Part shown: positions 4,576 to 47,760 of the stretch, one piece after another
Layout of the letters: each line of letters opens with the position of its first letter
How positions within the stretch are numbered: the first letter of the stretch is position 1
Assembly (NCBI GenBank): GCA_025210965.1
Contig: JAOAQY010000034.1
Span: 96,207 to 143,966, forward strand
DNA: 47,760 nucleotides
Direction of reading: 5' to 3'
Source: Tissierellales bacterium
GTDB lineage: Bacteria > Bacillota > Clostridia > Tissierellales > JAOAQY01
Notes under the pieces: model-generated
The model's database searches: none
What the model saw: the letters and a program-made list of their open reading frames with translations, nothing else
Told to the model about the DNA's origin: nothing
Made by a program: the position numbers and the translations under genes

Positions 4576-4626
4576 AAAAGCTTAGCTAAAATAGATAATT
4601 AATTCTATTTTAGCTAAGCTTTTCAT
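4576..4626. terminator. Bidirectional terminator between convergent genes
   Basis: A perfect 20-bp stem (4576-4595 pairs with 4604-4623) with an 8-base loop has A-runs and T-runs on both sides. It serves the dehydrogenase on the plus strand and the symporter on the minus strand. Confidence 0.92.
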
Positions 4627-7859: not shown

Positions 7860-8222
7860 ATGAGTTTATTAGGGAATTTACTTTGGATAATATTTGGAGG
7901 ACTGTTGTCAGCTATTGGCTGGACATTAGCAGGAATTATTTTGTGTATAACTGTGGTCGGGATACCATTTGGTATGCAGTGTTTCAAGATTGCAGGACTT
8001 ACTTTAGTTCCATTTGGCAGAAACGCTGAAGTTGGTGAATTTGGAGCAGGCGGTCTGCTTTTAAATATTCTTTGGATAATATTCCTTGGATGGGAATTAT
8101 GTTTAGGACATTTGATATTTGGAGCGTTATTATGCGTGACTGTAATAGGGATACCATTTGGATTACAACATTTTAAACTAGCAAAACTTGCATTATTACC
8201 ATTTGGTGCCAAGATTAATTGA
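7860..8222 (+). CDS. YccF domain membrane protein
   Basis: The small 120-aa inner-membrane protein has an internal duplication: the motif GIPFGxQxFKxAxLxLxPFG occurs at about residues 37-57 and again near 97-117, each preceded by hydrophobic helices. This is the hallmark of the YccF family. The function is unknown. AAAGGAGG precedes the ATG at good spacing. A separate strong promoter for smpB starts within its last codons. Confidence 0.9.
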   Translation: MSLLGNLLWIIFGGLLSAIGWTLAGIILCITVVGIPFGMQCFKIAGLTLVPFGRNAEVGEFGAGGLLLNILWIIFLGWELCLGHLIFGALLCVTVIGIPFGLQHFKLAKLALLPFGAKIN

Positions 8223-8247
8223 CTTATTCGTTGAAATTTGCTATAAT
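8219..8247 (+). promoter_or_regulatory. Sigma-A promoter of smpB-ssrA
   Basis: TTGACT (8219-8224), exact 17-base spacer, consensus TATAAT (8242-8247). The -35 overlaps the end of the YccF gene. Because ssrA starts at the smpB stop codon, this may also drive the tmRNA. Confidence 0.85.
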
Positions 8248-8276
8248 AGGGAAGTCTTGTAAGGAGAGTGTTGAGC

Positions 8277-8738
8277 ATGGCAAGTGAAAATTACAGAGTG
8301 ATAGCAAACAACAAAAAAGCTAGGCATGATTTTTTTATAGAAGATACTATTGAAGTTGGAGTTGTTTTGACTGGAACTGAAATAAAGTCTATTAGAAAAG
8401 GAAAAGTTAATTTGAAAGATAGCTATGCTAGCATAAAGGATGCAGAAATATTTGTGTATTCTATGCACATTAGTCCTTATGAGCAAGGTAATATCTACAA
8501 TGTTGATCCTTTGAGAGTTAGAAAGTTATTGCTTCATAAGCGAGAAATTAGAAAACTGATAGGATATGTTCAGCAGAAGGGATATTCCTTGATTCCTCTA
8601 AAGCTTTACTTAAAAGGTGGTAGAGCCAAGATTGAATTGGCAGTAGCAAAGGGTAAGAAGCTTCATGATAAAAGACAGACTCTTGCTAAAAAAGATGCTG
8701 ATCGCCGAATGAGAAAGCATATGAGTGAGAAATATTAG
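8277..8738 (+). CDS. smpB: SsrA-binding protein SmpB
   Basis: The 153-aa protein matches SmpB over its full length: [38 protein letters not shown], then [12 protein letters not shown], and the basic tail [20 protein letters not shown]. SmpB escorts tmRNA to stalled ribosomes for trans-translation. The start at 8277 (ATG-GCA-AGT-GAA) is chosen because AAGGAG sits 10 bases before it; in-frame GTG and TTG codons at 8268 and 8271 are too close to that site. The stop codon TAG shares its last base with the first base of the tmRNA gene, an exceptionally tight smpB-ssrA arrangement. Confidence 0.97.
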
Positions 8739-9095
8739 GGGTCGAAAATGGTTTCGACGGGGATGTGGAACATAGAGTAGCTGGTAGTGTTTACGTTCGG
8801 GTTCACTTCAAAAACTAGAACATAAATATAAACGCAGATAATAATAATTACGCATTAGCTGCCTAAGTTGCAGCTGACTTACTAGATTAGACCTGCCTAG
8901 TCTAGCTTAAGTCTCAAATTAAAGCAGGAAACGGCATCTAGGGTGTCTAGACTAGATGGCTGTATTATAGGCTCGCGGATTTGAAATCTTGTTGCTAAGA
9001 GTTCATTGAAGTTAAATATAAATTAGCAACTGTATCAGGAGAAGCTCTGTGGAAAATGTTTTCGGACGTGGGTTCGACTCCCACCGACTCCACCA
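8738..9095 (+). ncRNA. ssrA: Transfer-messenger RNA (tmRNA)
   Basis: This is a 358-nt one-piece tmRNA. The 5' GGGGUCG pairs with CGACUCC before an encoded terminal ACCA, forming the tRNA-like acceptor stem. The T-arm GGGUUCGACUCCC is present near the 3' end, and the conserved GGTTTCGACGGGG follows the 5' end. The tag reading frame starts at the resume codon GCA (8834) and ends at TAA (8864-8866), giving ADNNNYALAA, with the usual ALAA degradation signal. Three consecutive Asn codons make the tag slightly unusual. It begins on the last base of the smpB stop codon, so it is likely processed from a joint transcript or has a promoter inside smpB. Confidence 0.97.
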
Positions 9096-9098
9096 TAT

Positions 9099-9131
9099 TA
9101 AAAAATCTCAGACATTGTCTGAGATTTTTTT
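9099..9131 (+). terminator. Rho-independent terminator of ssrA
   Basis: A 12-bp stem (9101-9112 with 9118-9129), loop CATTG, and a T7 run, 5 bases after the tmRNA 3' end. Confidence 0.9.
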
Positions 9132-9207
9132 GTTACGTTAAATACGGAATATAGTAAAATGTTTTGATAATAAAAGTAATAAAGAACACATAAATTTAAA
9201 ATAAATA

Positions 9208-9216
9208 TGCTATAAT
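9208..9216 (+). promoter_or_regulatory. Extended -10 promoter of the EAL gene
   Basis: TGCTATAAT is a consensus extended -10 element 34 bases before the EAL gene start; no convincing -35 is seen. Confidence 0.55.
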
Positions 9217-9249
9217 AAAAACTAGTGGTATCGGGGGAAAGGAAATTTA

Positions 9250-11001
9250 ATGAAGATAAAGAAGCGCTATGTTATTTTGATGATATTTATTTTCGTAGAA
9301 ATGATGTTTTTTTTAAGTAGACGAATGAATCAAAATTGTGAAGACTTTATTAGAAGTGCAGAAAAAGAAATACATCACCAAATATCTATAAATACGGAAT
9401 ACTATAACAAATTGGCTTTAGAAAATATAGATGAGGTAAAAAGATTATTTTATCGAAGAGATTGCGATTCTAGAGTGGAATATGGATATAGGTATTTGCA
9501 AGAAGATGATTATGTTTATTTATTTGATAAAAGTGTATTTAGACAGAGTAATTATAGCAAAGGCACTTTTAACAACAAATATATTTGTGAAGGGTATAAC
9601 AGAGAGGTACTAGAAGAAAATGGCAGAACATATCAAGTTATATATGGGGAAATAGTAGATAAATTTGGAATACAGCGAGTTTATTTTTTGAATACAGATA
9701 GTATAATAAATTATGCTAGAAAGAAATTCATGGTAAGCATGCATCCTATACTTATCAATTTACTCATATATTTAATTGTGTTTTTAGTATACATTTATGA
9801 AGGATATTTTATGAATGACGAAAGTGGTATGAAAAACTATTTAGCGTTTGACTTTTTTTACAGAAGAAAGATTAATTCTGAAAAACTTAATAGAAAAGCA
9901 TTGATTGTAAGCATTGTAAATTTCGATGTAATATGTGAAAAAAGATCAATGAAAAAATGCTTTGGAATGATTAAAAGGTTTTTGATAATGAACACAAAAA
10001 TCAAATGTATATATTTGAGAAAGGGAACGTTTTTGTTTTTGTCGAAAAATCAGAATGAATATTGGATAGGGTTCTTCGAAGAATTTTCTGATTTGATTTT
10101 GAATAAAAAAAAGAGTGCAAAAATATTGTATTCTGAAATTAAATTTGATGTGGATATTGATCCGGGAGATATAAAAGAATTAGATGAGTATATCAAATAT
10201 CATGATTTAGGAGTCGTAAGCCAGATTAGTATGAATGCTGTTATTCACTATGGAGAACGAGAGAAAAATATAGGGAGGATATTAGATGAATGCTTAGAAT
10301 ATAGCGAAAAATCTATAATACCTTATTTTCAGCCACTTTATAGTGTAAAAGATGAGAGTATAACAAGATACGAAGTACTTATGCGTTTTAAGTACAAAGA
10401 CGAAGTGTTAGCTCCTTATCCATTTATTTGTTTTGCCGAGAAGCATGGTTTGATTTCTGTACTAGATATGCAATTGTATGAGGCCTTTTTCAAAAAACTT
10501 ACAAGCGATAGTAGTGAATTTTCAAAGTATAAATATTCTATAAATTTGTCAGGTATAGAATTAAATGAAAGGTTTATAGATGAGTTAGTTAAAAAACTAA
10601 AATGTTATGATATACCAGAAAGTCTGATTACACTTGAAATTACAGAGACTAGTGCTTATGATTTCAATGATAATTTTGTAAGATATCTAAAAAAATTACA
10701 AAATAAGGGATTTAAAATAGCGATAGATGATTTTGGTTCTGGTTTTTCAAATTTCAATTTACTTCGTGTGTTGGATGTCGATTTTGTAAAGATTGATGGA
10801 AGTTTAGTTAGACATGTATTAGATGATGAAAAAGCACGTAAGAGGCTTCAGTGCATTATAAATATGTTAAAATTAGAGAGTGTAAAGATTGTTGCCGAAT
10901 TTGTAGAATCAAAAGAATTAAGAGACGAATTGGAGAAAATGGGTGCAAATTATTTGCAGGGCTATTATATTGGTAGACCTGATAAAAAACTAGTTGATTA
11001 G
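9250..11001 (+). CDS. Membrane EAL-domain c-di-GMP phosphodiesterase with degenerate GGDEF
   Basis: The 583-aa protein has a first membrane helix at about residues 7-23, an extracytoplasmic sensor region of about 140 residues, and a second helix at about 163-187. A cytoplasmic region (about 215-340) looks like a GGDEF fold, but the signature is replaced by LRKGTFLFLS. The EAL domain (about 348-583) keeps the catalytic set: E375 (EVLMR), Asn in INLSG, Glu in LEITET, D493-D494 (IDDFGSG), K514 (KIDGS), E553 (AEFVES) and Gln in LQGYYIGRP. It should therefore hydrolyse c-di-GMP in response to an external signal. The degenerate GGDEF may be regulatory. It stands alone between two terminators. Confidence 0.9.
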   Translation: MKIKKRYVILMIFIFVEMMFFLSRRMNQNCEDFIRSAEKEIHHQISINTEYYNKLALENIDEVKRLFYRRDCDSRVEYGYRYLQEDDYVYLFDKSVFRQSNYSKGTFNNKYICEGYNREVLEENGRTYQVIYGEIVDKFGIQRVYFLNTDSIINYARKKFMVSMHPILINLLIYLIVFLVYIYEGYFMNDESGMKNYLAFDFFYRRKINSEKLNRKALIVSIVNFDVICEKRSMKKCFGMIKRFLIMNTKIKCIYLRKGTFLFLSKNQNEYWIGFFEEFSDLILNKKKSAKILYSEIKFDVDIDPGDIKELDEYIKYHDLGVVSQISMNAVIHYGEREKNIGRILDECLEYSEKSIIPYFQPLYSVKDESITRYEVLMRFKYKDEVLAPYPFICFAEKHGLISVLDMQLYEAFFKKLTSDSSEFSKYKYSINLSGIELNERFIDELVKKLKCYDIPESLITLEITETSAYDFNDNFVRYLKKLQNKGFKIAIDDFGSGFSNFNLLRVLDVDFVKIDGSLVRHVLDDEKARKRLQCIINMLKLESVKIVAEFVESKELRDELEKMGANYLQGYYIGRPDKKLVD

Positions 11002-11006
11002 ATGAA

Positions 11007-11047
11007 AGAGAAATCGATGATTATCATTGATTTTTCTTATTTTTTTA
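11007..11047 (+). terminator. Rho-independent terminator after the EAL gene
   Basis: A 14-bp stem with G-U pairs (11007-11020 with 11024-11037), TTA loop, followed by a long T-run. Confidence 0.8.
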
Positions 11048-11151
11048 CAAAATTTAGATACAAAAAATGTTAGACTTTTCCATAAAAGGGGTAAAAGATT
11101 ATAAATGAAGTTATAGAAATAAAATATACGGTATTTATAAGGGTGGTTTTG

Positions 11152-11643
11152 ATGAATAAATTGCTTAAATGGGTGTCCTATTTGTTTTTTTGGATGATAT
11201 TAGAATCTTCTTTTTCCATAGAATCATTGGTAAAAGGGATTATAGTTGCTAGCATAGTTCTTTTGTTTTCAAATAAAATTTTCAAAAATAATGATGTTAA
11301 ATATTTGAAAGGACAAGCTATTTGGAGAACTATTTGGTTTTTAGAAATTGTAATGGTAGAGATGTTTAAAGCTGCATTTCAGCATATAGTAAGAATAATG
11401 ATAGGTGACGACACACCAGTTATATTAGAAGTAGAGCTCGAGTTCAAAGATCCATTTATTACCATGCTAATAGCAAATGCTATAACTCTTACACCAGGAA
11501 CTATTACACTTAAAGTGGAAGGGTCAAAACTTACGGTTCTTGGATTTGCAAAAGATTCATTTGAGGAAGAAGCAATAAGGCACACTATATTGTCAAGGTT
11601 TCAAAAACCATTTGTAAAAAAACAGAGGATTAGGGGAGAGTAA
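11152..11643 (+). CDS. mrpE: Na+/H+ antiporter subunit E (MrpE/MnhE, MbhA-like)
   Basis: This 163-aa protein is the first gene of an eight-subunit antiporter operon. It has N-terminal hydrophobic helices and the conserved MrpE C-terminal domain with the segments LIANAITLTPGTITL and EGSKLTVLGF. MrpE is a membrane subunit of the hetero-oligomeric cation/H+ antiporter, needed for assembly in studied Mrp systems. The start at 11152 (ATG) is preferred over GTG 11143, because AGGGTGG at 11140-11146 is then correctly placed. One base separates its stop from the next start. Confidence 0.9.
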   Translation: MNKLLKWVSYLFFWMILESSFSIESLVKGIIVASIVLLFSNKIFKNNDVKYLKGQAIWRTIWFLEIVMVEMFKAAFQHIVRIMIGDDTPVILEVELEFKDPFITMLIANAITLTPGTITLKVEGSKLTVLGFAKDSFEEEAIRHTILSRFQKPFVKKQRIRGE

Positions 11644-11644
11644 T

Positions 11645-11902
11645 ATGTTAAAGGCTACATGTTATATTTTGATATTTGCGATATTAGTACTGGTCATATA
11701 TTTACTCAGGAGTAAAAACGTTTGGGAAAGAGTCATGGTTATTAATTTACTTAGTATAAAAACCATATTGCTTATAACTGTGTTTGCTGTTTTAATGGAC
11801 TTGCCAGTGATGTTAGATATTACAATAACATATAGCATCATAGGTTTTGTTGCTATAACACTTATATCACGGTTTTTATTGAGTGGGGGTAGGTTGAAAT
11901 GA
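11645..11902 (+). CDS. mrpF: Na+/H+ antiporter subunit F (MrpF, MbhB-like)
   Basis: The 85-aa protein has three predicted transmembrane helices, a typical size and topology for MrpF/MnhF. The conserved RVMVINLLSIKTI segment links the first two helices. It starts right after mrpE, with GGGGAGAG as ribosome-binding site, and its TGA stop overlaps the next ATG (ATGA). In the archaeal Mbh numbering it corresponds to MbhB. Confidence 0.87.
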   Translation: MLKATCYILIFAILVLVIYLLRSKNVWERVMVINLLSIKTILLITVFAVLMDLPVMLDITITYSIIGFVAITLISRFLLSGGRLK

Positions 11903-12186
11903 TAGATGAAATACTTATAGTCTTAGCTTGGTGTTTTCTTTTAATTGGCCTTGCTGGATTATTTAGGTTAAAGGGAATATACGAAAAATTATTAAATAGC
12001 AGCAAAATAGATTCTGTTACATTTCTTACATTGATGCTTGCTTTAATAGTTAGATCAGGATGGAGTGAAATGTCGTTGAAACTTGTTATTATATTGATTT
12101 TTTATCTCATGACTAATCCTATAGCTAGTCAAATTGTTGCAAGTTCGGCATACAAGCATGGAATAGAACCAAAAGATAGGAAGTGA
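11899..12186 (+). CDS. mrpG: Na+/H+ antiporter subunit G (MrpG, MbhC-like)
   Basis: The 95-aa protein has three predicted helices and the MrpG pattern GLAGLFRLKGIYEKLLNSSK, followed by MTNPIASQIVASSAY in the C-terminal part. The start overlaps the mrpF stop by four bases, indicating translational coupling. It corresponds to MbhC in the archaeal module. Confidence 0.88.
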   Translation: MIDEILIVLAWCFLLIGLAGLFRLKGIYEKLLNSSKIDSVTFLTLMLALIVRSGWSEMSLKLVIILIFYLMTNPIASQIVASSAYKHGIEPKDRK

Positions 12187-12190
12187 TAAT

Positions 12191-12742
12191 ATGTATGTAT
12201 ATTTTTTACTCGCTATTTTGATAATACTTATGGTTTGCATGATTAGAGTGGAAAACAATCTTTACCTGATAATGTATTCTTTTTTCTTTTCATTAATTAC
12301 GGCGAGCATATATTTTATATACAATGCTCCAGACTTATCATTAGCTGAAGTATCTATAGGTTGTGGTTTGGTACCACTTATATATATAATTGCTGTTTCA
12401 AAACAGAAGACATTCGTAGTTGTTGTATTTAGAGGTGTTGGTAGAGGCGAGCTAAATGATGATAAAATAGAAAAACAATTTGAAGATCTGATGAATGAGT
12501 TTTCAGAGTATTACAAATTGAAACTAAAAATATATCATTACAAGGCAAATTACAGACCCTCAAGAAGAAAAGCTTTGAGAGAAGGTCATATTGATTTATT
12601 GGTAACATACAATGGAAAGCAAAATTTTCTCGAAATAGAGGGAAATAGTCAAAATCTTATGATTAATAGACTGAAATATCTATTGATGTCTTACGAATCA
12701 ATACAATTGAAAGAGGAGGTAAATGATGAGAAAATATTTTAA
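12191..12742 (+). CDS. MbhD-like antiporter subunit (MrpA C-terminal-type) with soluble extension
   Basis: The first about 80 residues form three hydrophobic helices with NAPDLSLAEVSIGCGLVP. This matches the DUF4040/MbhD segment that in bacterial MrpA is part of the C-terminal region. MbhD alone is about 90-100 aa, but this protein has 183. Residues about 85-183 are a hydrophilic domain (VVVVFRGVGRG; REGHIDLLVTYNG; basic RPSRRK in between) that I do not recognise; it probably faces the cytoplasm. Its position, after MrpG and before the MbhE-like gene, is exactly that of mbhD. It overlaps the next gene by 17 bases. Confidence 0.8.
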   Translation: MYVYFLLAILIILMVCMIRVENNLYLIMYSFFFSLITASIYFIYNAPDLSLAEVSIGCGLVPLIYIIAVSKQKTFVVVVFRGVGRGELNDDKIEKQFEDLMNEFSEYYKLKLKIYHYKANYRPSRRKALREGHIDLLVTYNGKQNFLEIEGNSQNLMINRLKYLLMSYESIQLKEEVNDEKIF

Positions 12743-12989
12743 GATAATGGTTAGTATTTTTTTATTGTTAATTTCCTTTATGATAATAGATATAGTTTTA
12801 AATGAATTTTCAGGATATAATACTAGCGCAGCAAATTATTATAGAGCGAATAGTTTTGCAGAGACTGGAGCTAGAAATTATGTGACAGCTATATACTTAG
12901 ACTATAGATTATTTGATTCGATATTTGAAGCTACTATATTATTCATAGTAGCAGCAGGCGTTTCTTATCTAGGGCATAGTGAAAAATAG
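12726..12989 (+). CDS. MbhE-like antiporter subunit (MrpA C-terminal-type)
   Basis: The 87-aa protein has an N-terminal helix, a short extracytoplasmic segment and a second helix. The conserved block TGARNYVTAIYLDYRLFDS, followed by EATILF, is the signature of MbhE and of the end of bacterial MrpA. The ATG at 12726 is chosen over 12723 because AGAGGAGG at 12712-12719 is 6 bases upstream of it. The start lies inside the previous gene. Together with the MbhD-like gene it supplies the MrpA C-terminal part as two separate chains. Confidence 0.83.
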   Translation: MRKYFKIMVSIFLLLISFMIIDIVLNEFSGYNTSAANYYRANSFAETGARNYVTAIYLDYRLFDSIFEATILFIVAAGVSYLGHSEK

Positions 12990-13000
12990 GGGGAGTTTGC

Positions 13001-13378
13001 GTGAGTGAGTATAATGTATTAAAAGCTATTAGTCGAGTACTTTTTCCATATATACTTATATTTGGATTGTATATAATAATAAATGGCGATTTGTCGCCAG
13101 GTGGAGGATTTCAAGGTGGGGTAGTACTTGCTACTTCATATTTTTTGTTGTATTTCATAAAGGGAGAACAGATACTAGATGTAAAAAAAATATTTATATA
13201 TGAGAAATTCTTATTTTTATTACTGGTAGTACTTTCGACAATGATTCTATTTAATAGATCATATGTTGGAGATCTGAGAAGATGGATGCTCATGATATTA
13301 AATTTAATCATAGGATTTAAAGTTGCGTTAGGTGTAGGTGGAATAATAGGGCTATTCTTGGGAGAGGGGCAAGTTTAA
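13001..13378 (+). CDS. mrpB: Na+/H+ antiporter subunit B (MrpB/MnhB, MbhF-like)
   Basis: This 125-aa protein has about four predicted helices and the MnhB signature GDLSPGGGFQGGVVLA between the first two. The start is GTG (13001), behind AGGGGGAG. The stop TAA overlaps the next ATG by one base (TAATG). It corresponds to MbhF. Confidence 0.92.
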   Translation: MSEYNVLKAISRVLFPYILIFGLYIIINGDLSPGGGFQGGVVLATSYFLLYFIKGEQILDVKKIFIYEKFLFLLLVVLSTMILFNRSYVGDLRRWMLMILNLIIGFKVALGVGGIIGLFLGEGQV

Positions 13379-13710: not shown

Positions 13711-15306
13711 ATGAATGTATTGGCACTAGGACTTGTATTTATCCCAATGATTCTTGGTATATTTTTATATCTTCTAGACAGCAAAAAGTCTAATAGATTT
13801 GTTTTTATATTTCAATTAATTTTTAGTTTGGGGATAATTTTGCTTATTTATAAATTGCACTTATACTCCAATTATTCGTGGGTCATAGGTGATTTAGACA
13901 AAATAGCTGGAATTGAGATTAGTTTAGATAATATAAGTCTCACATTTATGGGAATGACTAATATAGGCATATGGATAATATTTTTATACTCTTGGGATGA
14001 AAAAGCTGAAAATACAAAGTTTTGGTTTTTTATAGAATTCATACAAGGAGCATTGTATATGCTTTTTATCGTTAACGATTTGTTTTCTATGTTTGTTGGA
14101 TTCGAGTTAGTTACCATACTTTCTAGTTTGATGATTTTATTAAAGAAGGATTCGAAATCATTGAAAGCGAGTCTGTATTATCTATTATACAATAGTGTGG
14201 GAATGATATTTTATCTATTAGGAATAATACTACTATATGTAAAGATAGGAACTCTTAATATAGACTTAGTTCACGATGCAGTCGAAGTGTTAGGTTATAC
14301 TCCAGAGCTATTATTATGCTATGGATTATTTATAACTGCATTTTGCTTAAAGTCTGCGGTTGTACCGATGAGCAGTTGGTTGCCCCTAGCACATAGTTCT
14401 GCTATGACTCCGATTTCGGCATTTTTATCTGGGTTACTTGTAAAAATTGGAGTATATGGTTTTATTAGAATACAAATGATGATGCCTATTTACGATATGA
14501 ATTCATTCTTGCTTATTGTTGGAATAGTTACAGCTTTGTTTGGTATATTTATGGCTATTATAGATAATGATATGAAACGCATATTAGCTTTTTCAACAAT
14601 ATCTCAAATGGGGCTTATAATAATAAGTTTGACAGGACAAGAGATAGCTAGCAGTGGAACTATGCTTCATTTGATTAATCACTTTTTTTCTAAGAGTTTG
14701 TTATTTTTGATTGTAGGAACTATAATAACACTTACTAAAGAGAGAGATATTAGAAAGATTAAATCGTTATATCAATATAGCCCGATGCTTTCGTTTGCAT
14801 TGATTATAGCCATACTTTCTATGACAGGGGCACCTTTGTCGGCGGGTGCTTTAAGTAAATTCTTGGTTAAAAAGAATTATTATGATACTAATATTTCAGC
14901 ATTTTTTTATTTGATGAATTTAGGTACAATGGCAGTATATTTTAGATTTATAAAAATACTTATGGGAGATACTATCAAGAGAGCTAGTTTGTTATTTAAG
15001 CAAAAATTAGTTTTTGTAATGATGAGCTTAGTTATAATAGTATCGGTAGCAATAGAAGCAATTGTAATAGATACAAAATTACTTCATAAATGGCTTAACT
15101 TTGGAAACATTATTTCTGAATTAGGAATTTATTTTTTATTCTTAATTATAATAGCTATAGGATATAGAAAACTCAAACTTAGTCACAGAGCTATAGTTAG
15201 GTATATTCGTTCAAGAAAATTAACTTTCCCAGAAGCAACGGGTGCAGTGATTTTTTTCTGGTTTATGATTATAGTTCAAGTTTATTATTCGGTTAAATTA
15301 AAATAA
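13711..15306 (+). CDS. mrpD: Na+/H+ antiporter subunit D (MrpD, NuoN/M-like proton channel subunit)
   Basis: The 531-aa protein has about 14 transmembrane helices and the proton-conducting transporter domain. Key charged residues of the family are visible: Glu in TM5 (FVGFELVTIL), Lys in TM7 (FCLKSAVVPMSSWLPLAH), Lys in TM8 (GLLVKIGVYGFIR), and His and Lys in HLINHFFSKSLLFL. It should carry the ion-translocating path of the complex. It is the only large NuoL/M/N-type subunit in the operon, as no MrpA N-terminal (NuoL-like) gene is present. It corresponds to MbhH. Confidence 0.93.
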   Translation: MNVLALGLVFIPMILGIFLYLLDSKKSNRFVFIFQLIFSLGIILLIYKLHLYSNYSWVIGDLDKIAGIEISLDNISLTFMGMTNIGIWIIFLYSWDEKAENTKFWFFIEFIQGALYMLFIVNDLFSMFVGFELVTILSSLMILLKKDSKSLKASLYYLLYNSVGMIFYLLGIILLYVKIGTLNIDLVHDAVEVLGYTPELLLCYGLFITAFCLKSAVVPMSSWLPLAHSSAMTPISAFLSGLLVKIGVYGFIRIQMMMPIYDMNSFLLIVGIVTALFGIFMAIIDNDMKRILAFSTISQMGLIIISLTGQEIASSGTMLHLINHFFSKSLLFLIVGTIITLTKERDIRKIKSLYQYSPMLSFALIIAILSMTGAPLSAGALSKFLVKKNYYDTNISAFFYLMNLGTMAVYFRFIKILMGDTIKRASLLFKQKLVFVMMSLVIIVSVAIEAIVIDTKLLHKWLNFGNIISELGIYFLFLIIIAIGYRKLKLSHRAIVRYIRSRKLTFPEATGAVIFFWFMIIVQVYYSVKLK

Positions 15307-41551: not shown

Positions 41552-41583
41552 ATAGCTAGCACAATGTGAAATGAGGGATGGAC

Positions 41584-42396
41584 ATGATTCAAGATTGGAA
41601 AATTGCTTTGATAGCCTACGAGCAAGCCGTAGAAGAATTAAAAGTTAAGTTTAAGAGTATACGCAAAGAATTTAGAAAAATTGATGAGTATTCACCGATA
41701 GAATTTGTTACAGGTAGAGTTAAGAAGATTTCAAGTATAATAGATAAGGCTAAATTAAGAGATATTCCACTTGATATCAATCGAATAGAGGCTGAGATAG
41801 AAGATATCGCAGGTATTAGGATTATGTGTCAATTTGAAGAGGATATACAGACTGTAGTTGAGTTGATTAAGCAAAGAGACGGAAAAGATCTTAGAATAGT
41901 TGAAGTTAGAGACTACATTACAAATATGAAACAAAGCGGATATAGAAGCTATCATGTTATAATTAAGTATCCGGTACAGACTGCACTCGGAGAGAAGGAG
42001 ATATTAGCCGAAATACAGATAAGAACGTTGGCAATGAATTTTTGGGCAACGATTGAGCATTCTTTGAATTATAAATATCAGCACAATATACCAGAGCCTA
42101 TAAAAGATAAACTAAAAAATGCAGCGGATGCAGCCTATAAATTAGATGAAGAGATGTCTCTGATAAGAGAAGAGATTATGGAAGCGCAGGAAGAATTTCA
42201 AGCAAAATCAACACTTGTTGCTACTTCACTCAATTTGCTTCAAGCTATGCATTTTTCAGGAAGAGTACCAGAAATCGAAGAATTACAAGCAAAATTCTAC
42301 GAACTTCAAGAAGAAGGGAATTACCATAAATTAAAGGAGTTCAAAAAGCATATTGATAAGGTTGCTAAATCATATGGTATAGCACTTGCTTATTAA
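41584..42396 (+). CDS. Small alarmone synthetase, RelQ/YjbM type
   Basis: The 270-aa protein is a single-domain GTP pyrophosphokinase making (p)ppGpp. Motifs: FVTGRVKKISSIIDK (41-55), D74-x-x-G-x-R79, GYRSYH (119-124), EIQIRT with E143, and FWATIEHSLNYKY (153-165). The C-terminal helices match the RelQ tetramerisation region, with a tail longer than the 211-aa B. subtilis YjbM. ATG 41584 is preferred to 41578, because GAGGG abuts the latter. It has its own promoter and terminator. It is the second alarmone synthetase in this window. Confidence 0.92.
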   Translation: MIQDWKIALIAYEQAVEELKVKFKSIRKEFRKIDEYSPIEFVTGRVKKISSIIDKAKLRDIPLDINRIEAEIEDIAGIRIMCQFEEDIQTVVELIKQRDGKDLRIVEVRDYITNMKQSGYRSYHVIIKYPVQTALGEKEILAEIQIRTLAMNFWATIEHSLNYKYQHNIPEPIKDKLKNAADAAYKLDEEMSLIREEIMEAQEEFQAKSTLVATSLNLLQAMHFSGRVPEIEELQAKFYELQEEGNYHKLKEFKKHIDKVAKSYGIALAY

Positions 42397-42429: not shown

Positions 42430-42498
42430 AAGTCCTATAATAAGAGTCCTATAATATTTAAATTTTATTACAGATTTAAATATTATAGGACTTTTTTG
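42430..42498. terminator. Bidirectional terminator with duplicated arm
   Basis: A perfect 19-bp stem (42445-42463 with 42474-42492), 10-base loop and T-run. The arm start AGTCCTATAATA also occurs as an upstream direct copy at 42431-42442. It separates the relQ-like gene from the convergent reductase gene. Confidence 0.88.
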
Positions 42499-42511: not shown

Positions 42512-43567
42512 CTAAAATGTGTAATTTCTAAAATTGGTTTCAATATGTTTGGCAAATTTCTTTGATTTTAGAGCTATATCTGGAACGTCAAATATAGCTT
42601 TGTAATCGTTTGCTGTAGCCATAGTAGCGAAATAAGGTGGAAGAGTAAATGATTTATTCATATTTAAAGCGCTTATTAATTGCTTAGCAAGAGCATCACT
42701 TCCAGAATTGCCAGAAACTATTACACTATAAAAAATTTTGTTATAAAATTTAGTGGTCCTATAGAGCGCTGTTAGGCGGTTTATAACAGCAGACATATTT
42801 GCAGTAAGAGCATCATTGTAGTTAGGACAGAGTAGTATAACTATGTCTGCATTCAATAAAGCTGGGTAAACCTCATCAACCATAACACCCCCATAAAAGC
42901 ATGATCGCTGTTTTCCATAATGAAGACACATAGTAAAAGGACAGCCATGACAATCTCTTACAGTGCCATTTTCAATGTGGATTTCATGTACTAAATCGAA
43001 TGGGATATAACTTTTTATCATATTCCAATAACGAAGGGTGTTAGAATGATTTTCATTACTAGAATGAAGAACTACTATATTGGGATTGCTAAAACTAGGA
43101 GATTCAAAATTAACTAATCGTTCTCCTAAATTTTTGCAACAATCAAGACAAACTTCAGACAATTCTTTTTTTATAACTTTTTGCATAGTTAAAAAGTTTC
43201 TTAAATTTCCAATAGCTTCAACTAGGGGATGGCCTACAAAGGCACATCCCATTTGATTCATGTGAAAAATTATATTTTGAGCTATTGTTTTAGTGTATAA
43301 ATCACCCGTTCCCCGGATTAAGAGAGCCGCAACGGAACCCCCAAGCGAATCAGAACCGATTTTATGCATTCGAATAATCCAATCATGAATTTCATTTGAA
43401 AATCCAAAATCATCTAAATCTATTGCGAGTAATAGTTTTTTGTTCTTAAGATTTGGCATGATATCAGAATAATATATAGATTCAAAGTCATAACTACTAA
43501 CTGATGCAGAAATCATTTTTATCAAAAATTCAGATGGATTCTTAGATGACAAAAGGTAAGAATCCAT
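42512..43567 (-). CDS. Tandem flavodoxin-like reductase with four-cysteine motif
   Basis: The 351-aa protein is the last gene of the three-gene operon. Residues about 160-340 resemble NADPH-dependent FMN reductases: NIVVLHSSNENHSNTLRYW, then DCHGCPFTMCLHYGKQRSC (C206, C209, C214, C223), and ADIVILLCPNYNDALTANMS. The Cys spacing (CxxC, x4, C, x8, C) is like that of iron-sulfur flavoproteins. Residues about 40-125 (GGSVAALLIRGTGD, MGCAFVGHPLVEA) look like part of a second, degenerate flavodoxin fold. It starts by a TAATG overlap with the gene before it, with AAGGAG upstream, so the two are translationally coupled. Substrate is unknown; electron transfer to or from flavin is the likely chemistry. 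Confidence 0.75.
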   Translation of the reverse strand: MDSYLLSSKNPSEFLIKMISASVSSYDFESIYYSDIMPNLKNKKLLLAIDLDDFGFSNEIHDWIIRMHKIGSDSLGGSVAALLIRGTGDLYTKTIAQNIIFHMNQMGCAFVGHPLVEAIGNLRNFLTMQKVIKKELSEVCLDCCKNLGERLVNFESPSFSNPNIVVLHSSNENHSNTLRYWNMIKSYIPFDLVHEIHIENGTVRDCHGCPFTMCLHYGKQRSCFYGGVMVDEVYPALLNADIVILLCPNYNDALTANMSAVINRLTALYRTTKFYNKIFYSVIVSGNSGSDALAKQLISALNMNKSFTLPPYFATMATANDYKAIFDVPDIALKSKKFAKHIETNFRNYTF

Positions 43568-44814
43568 TATAAAATCTCCTTCAAATAAGAATGTGTTTCT
43601 TCTAATCTTTTATAAAGCTTTTCTGGAAAATCGTAGCGTTCCCAATCGCATCCACTTTCTAAAAGCCTGTTTTTAGTTCCTATAAAAGCGCCGTCAAAAT
43701 AGAGAGCACTATAATGCCAATTGCCAGAGATTGTATTTATAAGAGATATGGCTCCTGAAGAAAGAGCTGGTGCTATATATGGTTTAAAGCCTAATTTTCT
43801 AACTTCTAAGTTGGCATTTTGAGTAAGCTCAGTTAATTTTAGACTCAGGTCATGATCATAATTTTTAATACTATTTGCAATAATAAGTCCATTTCCATGT
43901 GGACCAAATGCTCTACCTACCGAATCGTAGTCATCTAAATTGAATTCATTTTTTGCATAGAAATTTGCGCGAGCATTCATAACGCCTAAACCATAACCAC
44001 GTATTTGACAGGCACTTAGACCTTTGCAATCAAGATTTCCAGATTCATCAGTATTTGAAGAGATATAAGCACTTTTACAGAGTAAGTCAACTGGGTCAGA
44101 CACTACTGCGAATAGACCGTTGTAGTTACAATCACGAGCTTTTTTAGCGTATATATTTACTATTTTCGAATTTTGCTCAAATTGAACCATGCGAACATCG
44201 CCTTCAACTATGTCAAGTGAAGGTATGGCTTTAGTTGCACAGAAAACAAATAAATCACAATCAAAAACTTGATCTTCGTTTAGTTTGAAAATTTCAGGAT
44301 ATGTTCTATTATCGAAATTTGAAAAAATTTGATTTCCTTCGAAAATTAAACGATCCATTTTAGTTTGATCAAAATCAAATATGCCAATTTGGCTTATTGA
44401 ATCACCACCTAATAATCGTAAACCTACAACTAAAGTTCTGCCAACATCACCGAGAGCAACTACATTAACTTTCCATTTCTTAGGAAGCTTTTTCCCAAGA
44501 AGAGATAGAATATTTGGAGCATTTTCATTTATAAAGCTGACCTTAGATTCACTAATTTTTGATGTGAACCATGCAGGAAAATATATAGATACATTTTCAG
44601 CTGAGTTATTTCTTAAATCTTTTAGAGAATCATTTGTTTTTAGACAATCATGTATAGAATTTACACAAAATTGATCTTTTCCATAGTTCGAAAGCGCCCC
44701 TATGAAATAAATTAAGTTAGATTTTGCAGCAGTAGTTTCATCAATTTCTTGGAAATTGAAAGATAGTTTTTTTTGAGACATAATAGTAGAATCGTTATAA
44801 GTGTAGTAATACAT
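43567..44814 (-). CDS. Lactate/malate dehydrogenase-fold protein of unknown function
   Basis: The 415-aa protein has about 110 residues of unrecognised N-terminus and then an LDH/MDH-like Rossmann domain. Visible parallels are VVALGDVGRTLVVGLRLLGG (NAD loop), the acidic strand end IFDFD (D147), VVSDPVDLL (237-245, like VSNPVDVL), GYGLGVMNARANFY (like GSGTxLDSARFR) and FGPHGNG (303-309, like GEHGDS). The Arg171 and His195 equivalents (R282, H306) are kept, but the Asp168 position reads Met or Asn. A classical lactate or malate dehydrogenase is therefore unlikely. GGGAG is 8 bases before the ATG. It lies 14 bases after the multidomain gene and overlaps the reductase gene. Confidence 0.72.
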   Translation of the reverse strand: MYYYTYNDSTIMSQKKLSFNFQEIDETTAAKSNLIYFIGALSNYGKDQFCVNSIHDCLKTNDSLKDLRNNSAENVSIYFPAWFTSKISESKVSFINENAPNILSLLGKKLPKKWKVNVVALGDVGRTLVVGLRLLGGDSISQIGIFDFDQTKMDRLIFEGNQIFSNFDNRTYPEIFKLNEDQVFDCDLFVFCATKAIPSLDIVEGDVRMVQFEQNSKIVNIYAKKARDCNYNGLFAVVSDPVDLLCKSAYISSNTDESGNLDCKGLSACQIRGYGLGVMNARANFYAKNEFNLDDYDSVGRAFGPHGNGLIIANSIKNYDHDLSLKLTELTQNANLEVRKLGFKPYIAPALSSGAISLINTISGNWHYSALYFDGAFIGTKNRLLESGCDWERYDFPEKLYKRLEETHSYLKEIL

Positions 44815-44828
44815 TAAAACATCTCCCT

Positions 44829-47759
44829 TTATATGAAATTTTTAATTCTGTTTAAATGTTCTAAATCATTTTCTAAGTATCGAGAAGGGGATAAATTCAA
44901 GTCATAATCTACGAATTTACCGCGATCAGGATATCTTGGAGAAATGAATACTTCGCCTAAGTGTCTTAAAGTAAGATTGCGTTCTGTTAATTTTAAATAT
45001 TCTTTTTCTAAAACTTTTAGAATGTCTCTTGAATTTTCAATTGCTACTTTAGAAAGTTCAAAAATAGATAGTTCGTCTGCGCCTTTTATAAAATTTGGAG
45101 TGGCATAAGGTAAAATGAAATTTAGTGATGGAATTAAATTTATTTTAGGACTTTGACCTCGCCAAACAGTTTCACCACCTATAAATGGGTAAAATGTGTT
45201 TTCATTAAACCATACTCTAAGTTTTGGCAGAAAATAGGCAGAATCGACTGAACGCTCCTGTAAATCCATTAGTTCTTTTCCTCGACCGGATAAAATGCCT
45301 ACTAATATTTGTTTTACATCTACATGTTTTTCTTTAAGTAATGGATCAAGAACTTTTATTCTGTATCCTTTATTTAAAAGATCATCAACTAAAATGATGG
45401 GTTTGTTGAATGCATTTATCATTTCAATCTGATGGTTAAGGCTCATATAGTGTGGATAGGGTTCTATTGTAAAAGATTCTATATCAGGAGCAAACATTTT
45501 TTCTGAATGAATAGATTTTGTAATTGTGTTTGGAACTATATATCCTTTTAATATAGAGCCGAATGGTGCACAAACATTCGTTCCCAAAACTCGAGGTTCT
45601 GTTTGAATTGGGCTTACATCATTGATTTGACAAATTTTTTGTATTAATTTTTGGTAGAGCATATCTCTATCAAATGATAGTATTAAATTACCTGGGTACA
45701 ATTTTGTAAGCGTTCTTTGTAACCTTTTTCTTGTTTTTAAAATAATTCTCTTTACATTGTCATTCGACCTAAAGGGCTCTTTTATAATAGTATCTAAATC
45801 CAAGGTTAATGTACAAGGATTTGACATATTAACATGATAAACTGGATATTGTTTCCCGCCAATGTTTATAGGTGAAAATCCCTGATCTTGTAAAACATTT
45901 GTCATGTGTTTGTTTCTGATTTTACAGATACCCTCATGATATATACCGTATGTATAATCACGAGCTAGACAAAATGAAAGAGTTTCAGTCAATAGTATTT
46001 GATTCAATTGCTTGTAATTAACTTTTTTGGAGCTAAATATACCGTCTATTACTATGATTCTACCTATAGCTTTTTCTCTTATGAATTCTGAGATTTTATT
46101 ATCTTTGAATTCGTGAAATAACATACTTGATCGAGTCCAATGGAAGAACGAAAAGCCAATTATTGTATTGCTAATCATATCTTTTATCATCAAAATTCTA
46201 GGGTTTTTAGCTTGAGCTAATTTTTGCATGTTTTTCAGAGAATCTTCTCGACCTTCAAAAAATTGTTTATTAAGGCATGACAAAATTTCCATATTCAAAT
46301 CTTCTACAACTTCAACCTTTATAAGACTAGTTTGTAATAAGCTTTTGTATTGAGGTTCTCTTCGGTATATTCCAGTTTCATATATAAATTTTTGAGCTAA
46401 AGGATCAATTAAAGCAGAAATATCGCGATTTTGATCTATATAGTTTCGTATCTGAGTTGAGCTTATATCTTCGTATTGTGGCGGAAGTTTAAGTCTTATA
46501 GTATCACCTTTTATAGACTTTAATTTTTCATCTAAAATAGGAGTATTATCCTCATTAGCATTTGTATTTCTTCGCTCAAATATGATATGAGAAAAAGAAT
46601 GAATAGAACCTAGAGTAGGCCCTATTTTATAACTAGATGCGTTTAAAATAACATCGCTACCAACTACTACGTATACCTCAACATCTGTGTCAAAGGAATG
46701 TCTAAGATGCATAAGGCTTGCGGGATTTGATATATTTACCTGAAAGTCTGGAGGCAAAATTTGAATATTAAATTCGTCAGCTATACTCATTGCTATAATC
46801 TCGCGTCTTAGCATATGTGGTTGTGTTCTTTTTGACCAAGAAAATTCATCAACAGCTAAAAATACTTCGAATCCCAAATCTCTGATATTTTTGGCTATTT
46901 CTTTATGACCTAGAGTGAAGGGGTCGAAAGTACCAGGGAAAAATGCAATTTTACGTTTTTTCTCTAGTTCTAATTCACCAATAAAGAAGTTGTAGTCTGA
47001 AATAAATCTGTATATATGATTTAGTGAAGCCGAACTGTTTAAAAATAGCAATTCATCATCCTCATATTTTGCAGATAAAATTAATATTCTCTTGGCAATA
47101 ATTTTGAAAATACGATATTTTTGATTGATAGTAAGTTTTTTTGTTCCAAATATATAAGTACCAATTATCAGAAAAGCTTCTTGCCTAACTTGTATATCAT
47201 AATTTACTAGACCAGTAATCAATATGCCGAGTAATTTTTTAAATCTAGCATCAAATACATCTTTAGATTCTTCGAAATTTTGAGAGTAATTTTGATACAC
47301 CTGAAGACAATTTCCAACAGTACTTAGAATCAAAAGGCTTATTTGCCTGTTTGCTTTTCGTATTTTTTCACAAAAATCATCAAGGATTTCATCAAATTCT
47401 TGAGGTTGTAAAAAAAGTAACATTCGACCTAGATAATAAGGAATATACTTTGTAAAGTGGTAATTTTCCATTTCTAGAGCTCTAATTAGCTCTATACAAA
47501 CATCATTTCTTTGATCTACAGTTAGATAAGGAGCTATCAATAATAATGACATTCCAGCGTGATTTCTAACATTTTCGACAGCGCTTACTTTTAACAAATT
47601 GCAATAGTGCATTGCGGTGTGTAATGCATGTCTTGATGGTTCGTGTTCAACACTTTTTAGAAGTATTTCTATATTGATTTTTTTATCTATCCAATTTGTT
47701 GCTGTTTTCAAATTTCTAAGAAAAATATCGCTAATCATAGTCTCACTTTGAGCAGTAAA
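44829..47759 (-). CDS. Multidomain protein: HEAT-like repeats + NadD-like nucleotidylyltransferase + GNAT-like + phosphoribosyltransferase (5' end open)
   Basis: The frame is open to the window edge. ATG 47738 gives 969 aa, but it lacks a good ribosome-binding site and begins within repeat-like helices, so the true start is probably outside. Counting from that ATG: residues 1-255 are helical HEAT-like repeats. Residues 262-465 are a nucleotidylyltransferase with GTFDPFTLGH (269-278) and ISSTQIR (425-431), the two signatures of NadD/NMNAT enzymes. Residues about 470-640 resemble a GNAT acetyltransferase (GRIIVIDGIFSS; VLQDQGFSPI). Residues about 655-870 carry a type I PRPP-binding motif IILVDDLLNKGYR (781-793). 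Repeats may form a scaffold. The combination suggests synthesis of a dinucleotide or nucleotide cofactor, but the substrate is unknown. It is first of three coupled genes. Confidence 0.8.
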   Translation of the reverse strand, partial: FTAQSETMISDIFLRNLKTATNWIDKKINIEILLKSVEHEPSRHALHTAMHYCNLLKVSAVENVRNHAGMSLLLIAPYLTVDQRNDVCIELIRALEMENYHFTKYIPYYLGRMLLFLQPQEFDEILDDFCEKIRKANRQISLLILSTVGNCLQVYQNYSQNFEESKDVFDARFKKLLGILITGLVNYDIQVRQEAFLIIGTYIFGTKKLTINQKYRIFKIIAKRILILSAKYEDDELLFLNSSASLNHIYRFISDYNFFIGELELEKKRKIAFFPGTFDPFTLGHKEIAKNIRDLGFEVFLAVDEFSWSKRTQPHMLRREIIAMSIADEFNIQILPPDFQVNISNPASLMHLRHSFDTDVEVYVVVGSDVILNASSYKIGPTLGSIHSFSHIIFERRNTNANEDNTPILDEKLKSIKGDTIRLKLPPQYEDISSTQIRNYIDQNRDISALIDPLAQKFIYETGIYRREPQYKSLLQTSLIKVEVVEDLNMEILSCLNKQFFEGREDSLKNMQKLAQAKNPRILMIKDMISNTIIGFSFFHWTRSSMLFHEFKDNKISEFIREKAIGRIIVIDGIFSSKKVNYKQLNQILLTETLSFCLARDYTYGIYHEGICKIRNKHMTNVLQDQGFSPINIGGKQYPVYHVNMSNPCTLTLDLDTIIKEPFRSNDNVKRIILKTRKRLQRTLTKLYPGNLILSFDRDMLYQKLIQKICQINDVSPIQTEPRVLGTNVCAPFGSILKGYIVPNTITKSIHSEKMFAPDIESFTIEPYPHYMSLNHQIEMINAFNKPIILVDDLLNKGYRIKVLDPLLKEKHVDVKQILVGILSGRGKELMDLQERSVDSAYFLPKLRVWFNENTFYPFIGGETVWRGQSPKINLIPSLNFILPYATPNFIKGADELSIFELSKVAIENSRDILKVLEKEYLKLTERNLTLRHLGEVFISPRYPDRGKFVDYDLNLSPSRYLENDLEHLNRIKNFI

Positions 47760-47760
47760 C

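Follow-up and report, generated by a model that had tools for sequence, protein, structure and literature searches.

A conserved three-gene unit at a contig end

The window analyzed here is a 47,760-nucleotide stretch of DNA (genome G000, contig C34, positions 96,207–143,966) whose last base, position 47,760, coincides with the end of its contig. Three minus-strand open reading frames lie next to that end, at 44,829–47,738 (a frame open up to the window end), 43,567–44,814 and 42,512–43,567. Hereafter called genes A, B and C, they are as tightly arranged as an earlier note on this DNA had described, with a 14-base gap between A and B and a TAATG overlap joining B and C. The features of the locus are as follows:

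42,445–42,492, either strand: hairpin of 20 bp in the gap separating C from the convergent RelA-like gene (z −6.4; T-run on the plus strand)
42,512–43,567, minus strand: gene C, 351 amino acids, tandem flavodoxin-fold protein with a C-terminal FMN_red domain (PF03358, E 3e-17; structure model)
42,899–42,952, minus strand: four-cysteine motif C206-x2-C209-x4-C214-x8-C223 of C, candidate Fe-S site (all four cysteines invariant in 27 sequences)
43,567–44,814, minus strand: gene B, 415 amino acids, LDH/MDH-like (open reading frame; PDB match)
44,829–47,760, minus strand: gene A, C-terminal 976 of 1624 codons (codons 1–648 on contig C102 of the same genome, from position 14,608 of locus L003 onward)
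45,120–45,782, minus strand: PRTase-like domain of A, residues 1308–1528 (PF00156 in 15 of 29 members; model topology)
45,360–45,401, minus strand: PRPP-type motif of A, PIILVDDLLNKGYR (D141, D142, G147, Y148 and R149 invariant in 29 sequences)
45,795–46,328, minus strand: GNAT-fold domain of A, residues 1126–1303 (Z 14.9 to 4fd6; alignment)
46,359–46,958, minus strand: NadD/NMNAT-like nucleotidyltransferase domain of A, residues 916–1115 (PF01467, E 3e-10; Z 16.9 to NadD 9fyb; motif)
46,983–47,735, minus strand: HEAT-repeat region of A, residues 657–907 (model; Z 17.4 to 8y9r; HEAT matches in homologues)

The contig ends inside gene A, and contig C102 closes with 141 bases identical to the reverse-strand start of C34. 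The two contigs belong together: joined, they encode a protein A of 1624 amino acids, so that the 969-residue version is a truncation artifact of the contig end. Homologues of A on single contigs, including complete chromosomes, span 1568–1661 amino acids, and this similar length of uninterrupted genes supports the join. Shortly upstream of the A start lies a promoter-like TTATCA-17-TATAAT (a consensus match only). At the other end of the unit, a bounding terminator had been proposed; the hairpin there is strong, but since its direct T-run is on the plus strand it suits the convergent RelA-like GTP pyrophosphokinase gene (41,578–42,396) better, or may act bidirectionally.

A multidomain protein with both kept and altered motifs

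Protein A comprises, in order, an HD phosphohydrolase-like region, HEAT repeats, a NadD-like nucleotidyltransferase, a GNAT fold, a PRTase-like domain and a helical tail. It had earlier been read as a HEAT/NadD-like/GNAT-like/PRTase chain, whose folds are borne out by structure matches and by a predicted structure of residues 649–1624 (pLDDT 85.3), less firmly for the PRTase; that reading was nonetheless incomplete, missing the HD domain and the 1624-residue extent.

Catalytic motifs are kept in two of these domains, HD and nucleotidyltransferase, and altered in two, GNAT and PRTase. For the HD region, both the family match (PF01966 in 20 of the 28 members, best E 2.3e-7) and the H..HD..D residues of HD phosphohydrolases are present, with H33, H67, D68 and D130 (numbering of the aligned region) invariant; a profile comparison of this region with the YqeK of the host genome was weak (probability 1.9). 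The nucleotidyltransferase domain scores 40.8 bits against a PF01467 cut-off of 21, has a NadD-type fold and keeps the NMNAT motif as PGTFDPF[ST]x[SG]H, while the NadD motif ISSTxIR is found at 75 of 120 loci and is not universal. A resembles the NadD and YqeK pair in its NadD fold and its FDPF..H motif and in having an HD domain alongside them, but its HD domain sits far N-terminal. It also differs from NadD itself: scores reach only 43.9 against 112.45 and 44.3 against 150 (curated equivalog cut-offs of TIGR00482 and NF000840), HxGH is replaced by [ST]x[SG]H, with Ser or Thr for the first His in the 13 aligned rows shown, and the Trp of GxDxxxxxxxW aligns with a Tyr.

In the alignment of the GNAT domain, the CoA loop Q/R-x-x-G-x-G/A is not seen. 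The PRTase-like domain matches PF00156 weakly in those 15 of 29 members (best E 6.8e-4), and no PRTase fold is among the structure matches listed for the A model, where other domains may simply have filled the list; this assignment is therefore more weakly supported than those of the NadD, GNAT and HEAT folds. Its consensus VILVDDLLxKGYR has the hydrophobic strand, the DD and the Gly of the PRPP motif of type I phosphoribosyltransferases, but with KGYR for TGGT (DDLLxKGYR versus DDxxxTGGT). Given these altered motifs, the GNAT and PRTase domains may bind their ligands and not catalyze.

A dehydrogenase-like protein and a tandem flavodoxin

That B is an LDH/MDH-fold protein, as previously claimed, was supported by a match to LDH/MDH in a PDB sequence search (E 3e-7) and by residues R208, R282 and H306, invariant in 28 sequences, which are the equivalents of Arg109, Arg171 and His195 in LDH numbering. 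Like members of the L-lactate/malate dehydrogenase superfamily, B has a Rossmann domain, but it departs from them at the catalytic Asp168 (M279) and at Asn140 (D240), both changes invariant in the 28 sequences. The Asp168–His195 pair that accompanies Arg109 and Arg171 in LDH/MDH is thereby broken, its Asp position being an invariant Met. Scores fall below the cut-offs of Ldh_1_N (25.2 against 27) and L-LDH-NAD (23.9 against 303.55), far below in the case of NCBIfam, and B carries an extra 105-residue N-terminal region. One homologue (locus L174, genome G198) has a single in-frame TGA near position 4600, in the N-terminal part of B, for which the start site or a sequence error are candidate causes.

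For C, the earlier idea of a flavodoxin-like reductase held as to fold and FMN_red membership, with a PF03358 score of 62.9 against a cut-off of 24 in its C-terminal half, but not as to number: the predicted structure (pLDDT 86.6) has two flavodoxin folds in tandem. Residues 1–156 match WrbA (Z 14.9) and residues 160–350 match SP1951 (2oys, Z 17.1); a PDB sequence search with C returned no relative. The second, N-terminal fold and the 2-4-8 cysteine spacing distinguish C from FMN_red/WrbA/SP1951 reductases and iron-sulfur flavoproteins, although it shares their FMN_red domain. The spacing C-x2-C-x4-C-x8-C had been noted before and is exact. Its cysteines, which recall Isf, are candidate ligands of an Fe-S cluster, and the loop at 207–213 within the motif has low pLDDT in the model.

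Linkage, co-occurrence and evolution of the unit

All three genes hold up as real, and together they make up a conserved unit. In the order sample (60 genomes, namely that of the window plus 59 others from its order), all three were detected in 39 genomes and none in 20 (40 genomes have A, and 39 each have B and C), the sole exception, G018, having A on a 6934-base contig that breaks off inside the gene. Across the phylum sample (299 genomes), searches with A, B, C or the PRT region all returned one identical set of four genomes, and the PRT region was found only in genomes with the operon. The proposed coupling, which would have been undermined had the genes rarely occurred together, is thus supported by the reverse pattern. 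At nearly all sampled loci with enough contig, A, B and C lie side by side in an unchanged order. Scanning 84,980 species yielded at least 575 A relatives, most of them from Clostridia; the 80 that we fetched belong to Clostridia, Atribacterota and one genome labelled Calditrichales, and nearly all of those with downstream sequence carry A-B-C. The system also occurs in Acetoanaerobium noterae, one 2.6-Mb record of which (NZ_CP154629.1) is filed as a plasmid, although its size suggests a chromosome. Overall, the unit is single-copy, with roughly 40–55% identity across hundreds of anaerobe species, and this wide retention suggests that it is probably useful.

Departures from this layout are few. 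In four genomes (L117, L121, L127 and L149), some of them incomplete bins, A and B are present with no match to C anywhere; as A persists with B in this way, A-B is the core and C probably a replaceable electron partner. A Clostridium thermobutyricum bin (L114) has four genes between A and B; ammonium-transporter-like and glutamate-synthase-like genes, named by eye, lie in this interval (7918–13,236). The uncultured Clostridia bin N1_Bin_25_1 (L136/L115) has two A copies, one of them without adjoining B and C, possibly owing to a second strain.

Pairwise distances are correlated among A, B and C (r 0.78–0.84), to which shared ancestry contributes. In a midpoint-rooted tree of B and C (84 rows), Atribacterota group as a single clade (support 100) next to Tepidibacteraceae and Peptostreptococcaceae, a placement that suggests transfer from Clostridia to Atribacterota. 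The window's own B and C (42,512–44,814) stand out among these rows by their unusually long branch (1.1), so both seem to be fast-evolving in this genome.

Genomic context

Whether the host genome has a separate nadD had been left as a question, and it does: a canonical nadD-yqeK pair lies apart from the operon, beside obgE, and the genome also has a NadM-like gene and coaD with a tmcAL-like gene. Replacement of the canonical NadD by A was therefore rejected, and with NadD and YqeK encoded elsewhere, the operon is likely to have a role distinct from the ordinary NAD route.

Neighboring genes differ between lineages, and among 118 loci no conserved neighbor named a product. A RelA-like relative was near the operon at 20 of these 118 loci, downstream of it at 19; CobO and amine-oxidase genes recur as well, though not at most loci. 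Given the absence of these genes near most loci, we dropped any inference of function from neighbors.

Possible function in nucleotide cofactor metabolism

No family in the libraries searched covers the unit, and no description of the operon was found in open-licence literature, so that one may exist elsewhere. To this extent the composition is undescribed, as the earlier note had it: each recognized fold is already known, and what is new is how they are combined, together with their departure from the membership tests of named families.

Our tentative proposal is that A, B and C work together as a single metabolic unit and that in anaerobes they make, remodel or recycle a redox cofactor containing a nucleotide, either NAD-like or some other dinucleotide; to this reading we give somewhat less than an even chance. 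It is the most economical one in light of the kept HD and nucleotidyltransferase motifs, the NAD(P)-binding dehydrogenase fold and the flavoprotein. The substrates, step order and cofactor content of B and C in the following scheme are those we infer from folds and motifs. The PRTase-like domain of A would take a ribose-5-phosphate or PRPP-type substrate, and the NadD-like domain would couple the resulting product to adenylate, or work in reverse; the HD domain would hydrolyze a phospho bond, and the HEAT repeats would keep the domains together. B would then act as an NAD(P)-binding oxidoreductase of LDH fold whose active site has changed, and C probably as an electron carrier with FMN and Fe-S; between them they would perform a redox step on the base or the sugar. 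The more specific chemistry suggested earlier, in which a nicotinamide-like cofactor is built or salvaged, is plausible, though unproven.

Cofactor building or remodeling ranks ahead of two related explanations, each of which we consider improbable. The unit could act in damage control, clearing or repairing a nucleotide, NAD(P)-like or other, that has been damaged, with A splitting and rejoining the molecule and B and C reducing it. The pairing of HD and NadD-like domains, which echoes the canonical nadD-yqeK pair, the two oxidoreductases, and the single-copy, widely kept pattern with absence from some relatives would all suit such a role, but we recognized no known repair enzyme family, a chain of 1624 amino acids is large for repair, and the PRTase-like domain is left unexplained. 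It is similarly doubtful that A is a nucleotide-sensing scaffold controlling the redox pair B/C, with several enzyme-like domains serving only as binding modules: the HEAT scaffold, the GNAT fold without a CoA loop and the altered PRPP loop point that way, against the strongly kept HD and nucleotidyltransferase motifs and the persistence of A with B in four genomes without C.

Nucleotidyltransferase, PRTase and redox folds serve in RNA modification too, so that a role in modifying RNA or tRNA, or in making an unknown nucleoside, has some appeal; Pfam scans without a convincing RNA-binding domain, and the failure to find an RNA-modification gene consistently linked to the operon, make it a slim prospect. 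A function in sporulation, defense or phage biology is highly improbable: the unit does occur mostly in Clostridia, many of them spore-forming, but the sporulation marker SpoIVA shows no association, exceeding its cut-off in 27 of 40 carriers and 13 of 20 non-carriers but failing to do so in the genome of the window, and we rejected this link. Searches for defense and phage functions were equally without match, for PADLOC at E 0.01, for PHROG, and for relatives of C in viral contigs.

In its boldest form, the favored cofactor reading would have the operon make an undescribed nucleotide cofactor, or a modified pyridine-type dinucleotide, of many anaerobes through a 1624-residue five-part enzyme with a dedicated dehydrogenase and flavoprotein, which we regard as unlikely. 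If the unit does make or mend a cofactor, it would mark a metabolic gap in Clostridia and Atribacterota. Not every step of the proposed pathway would need C, since four genomes keep A and B without it.
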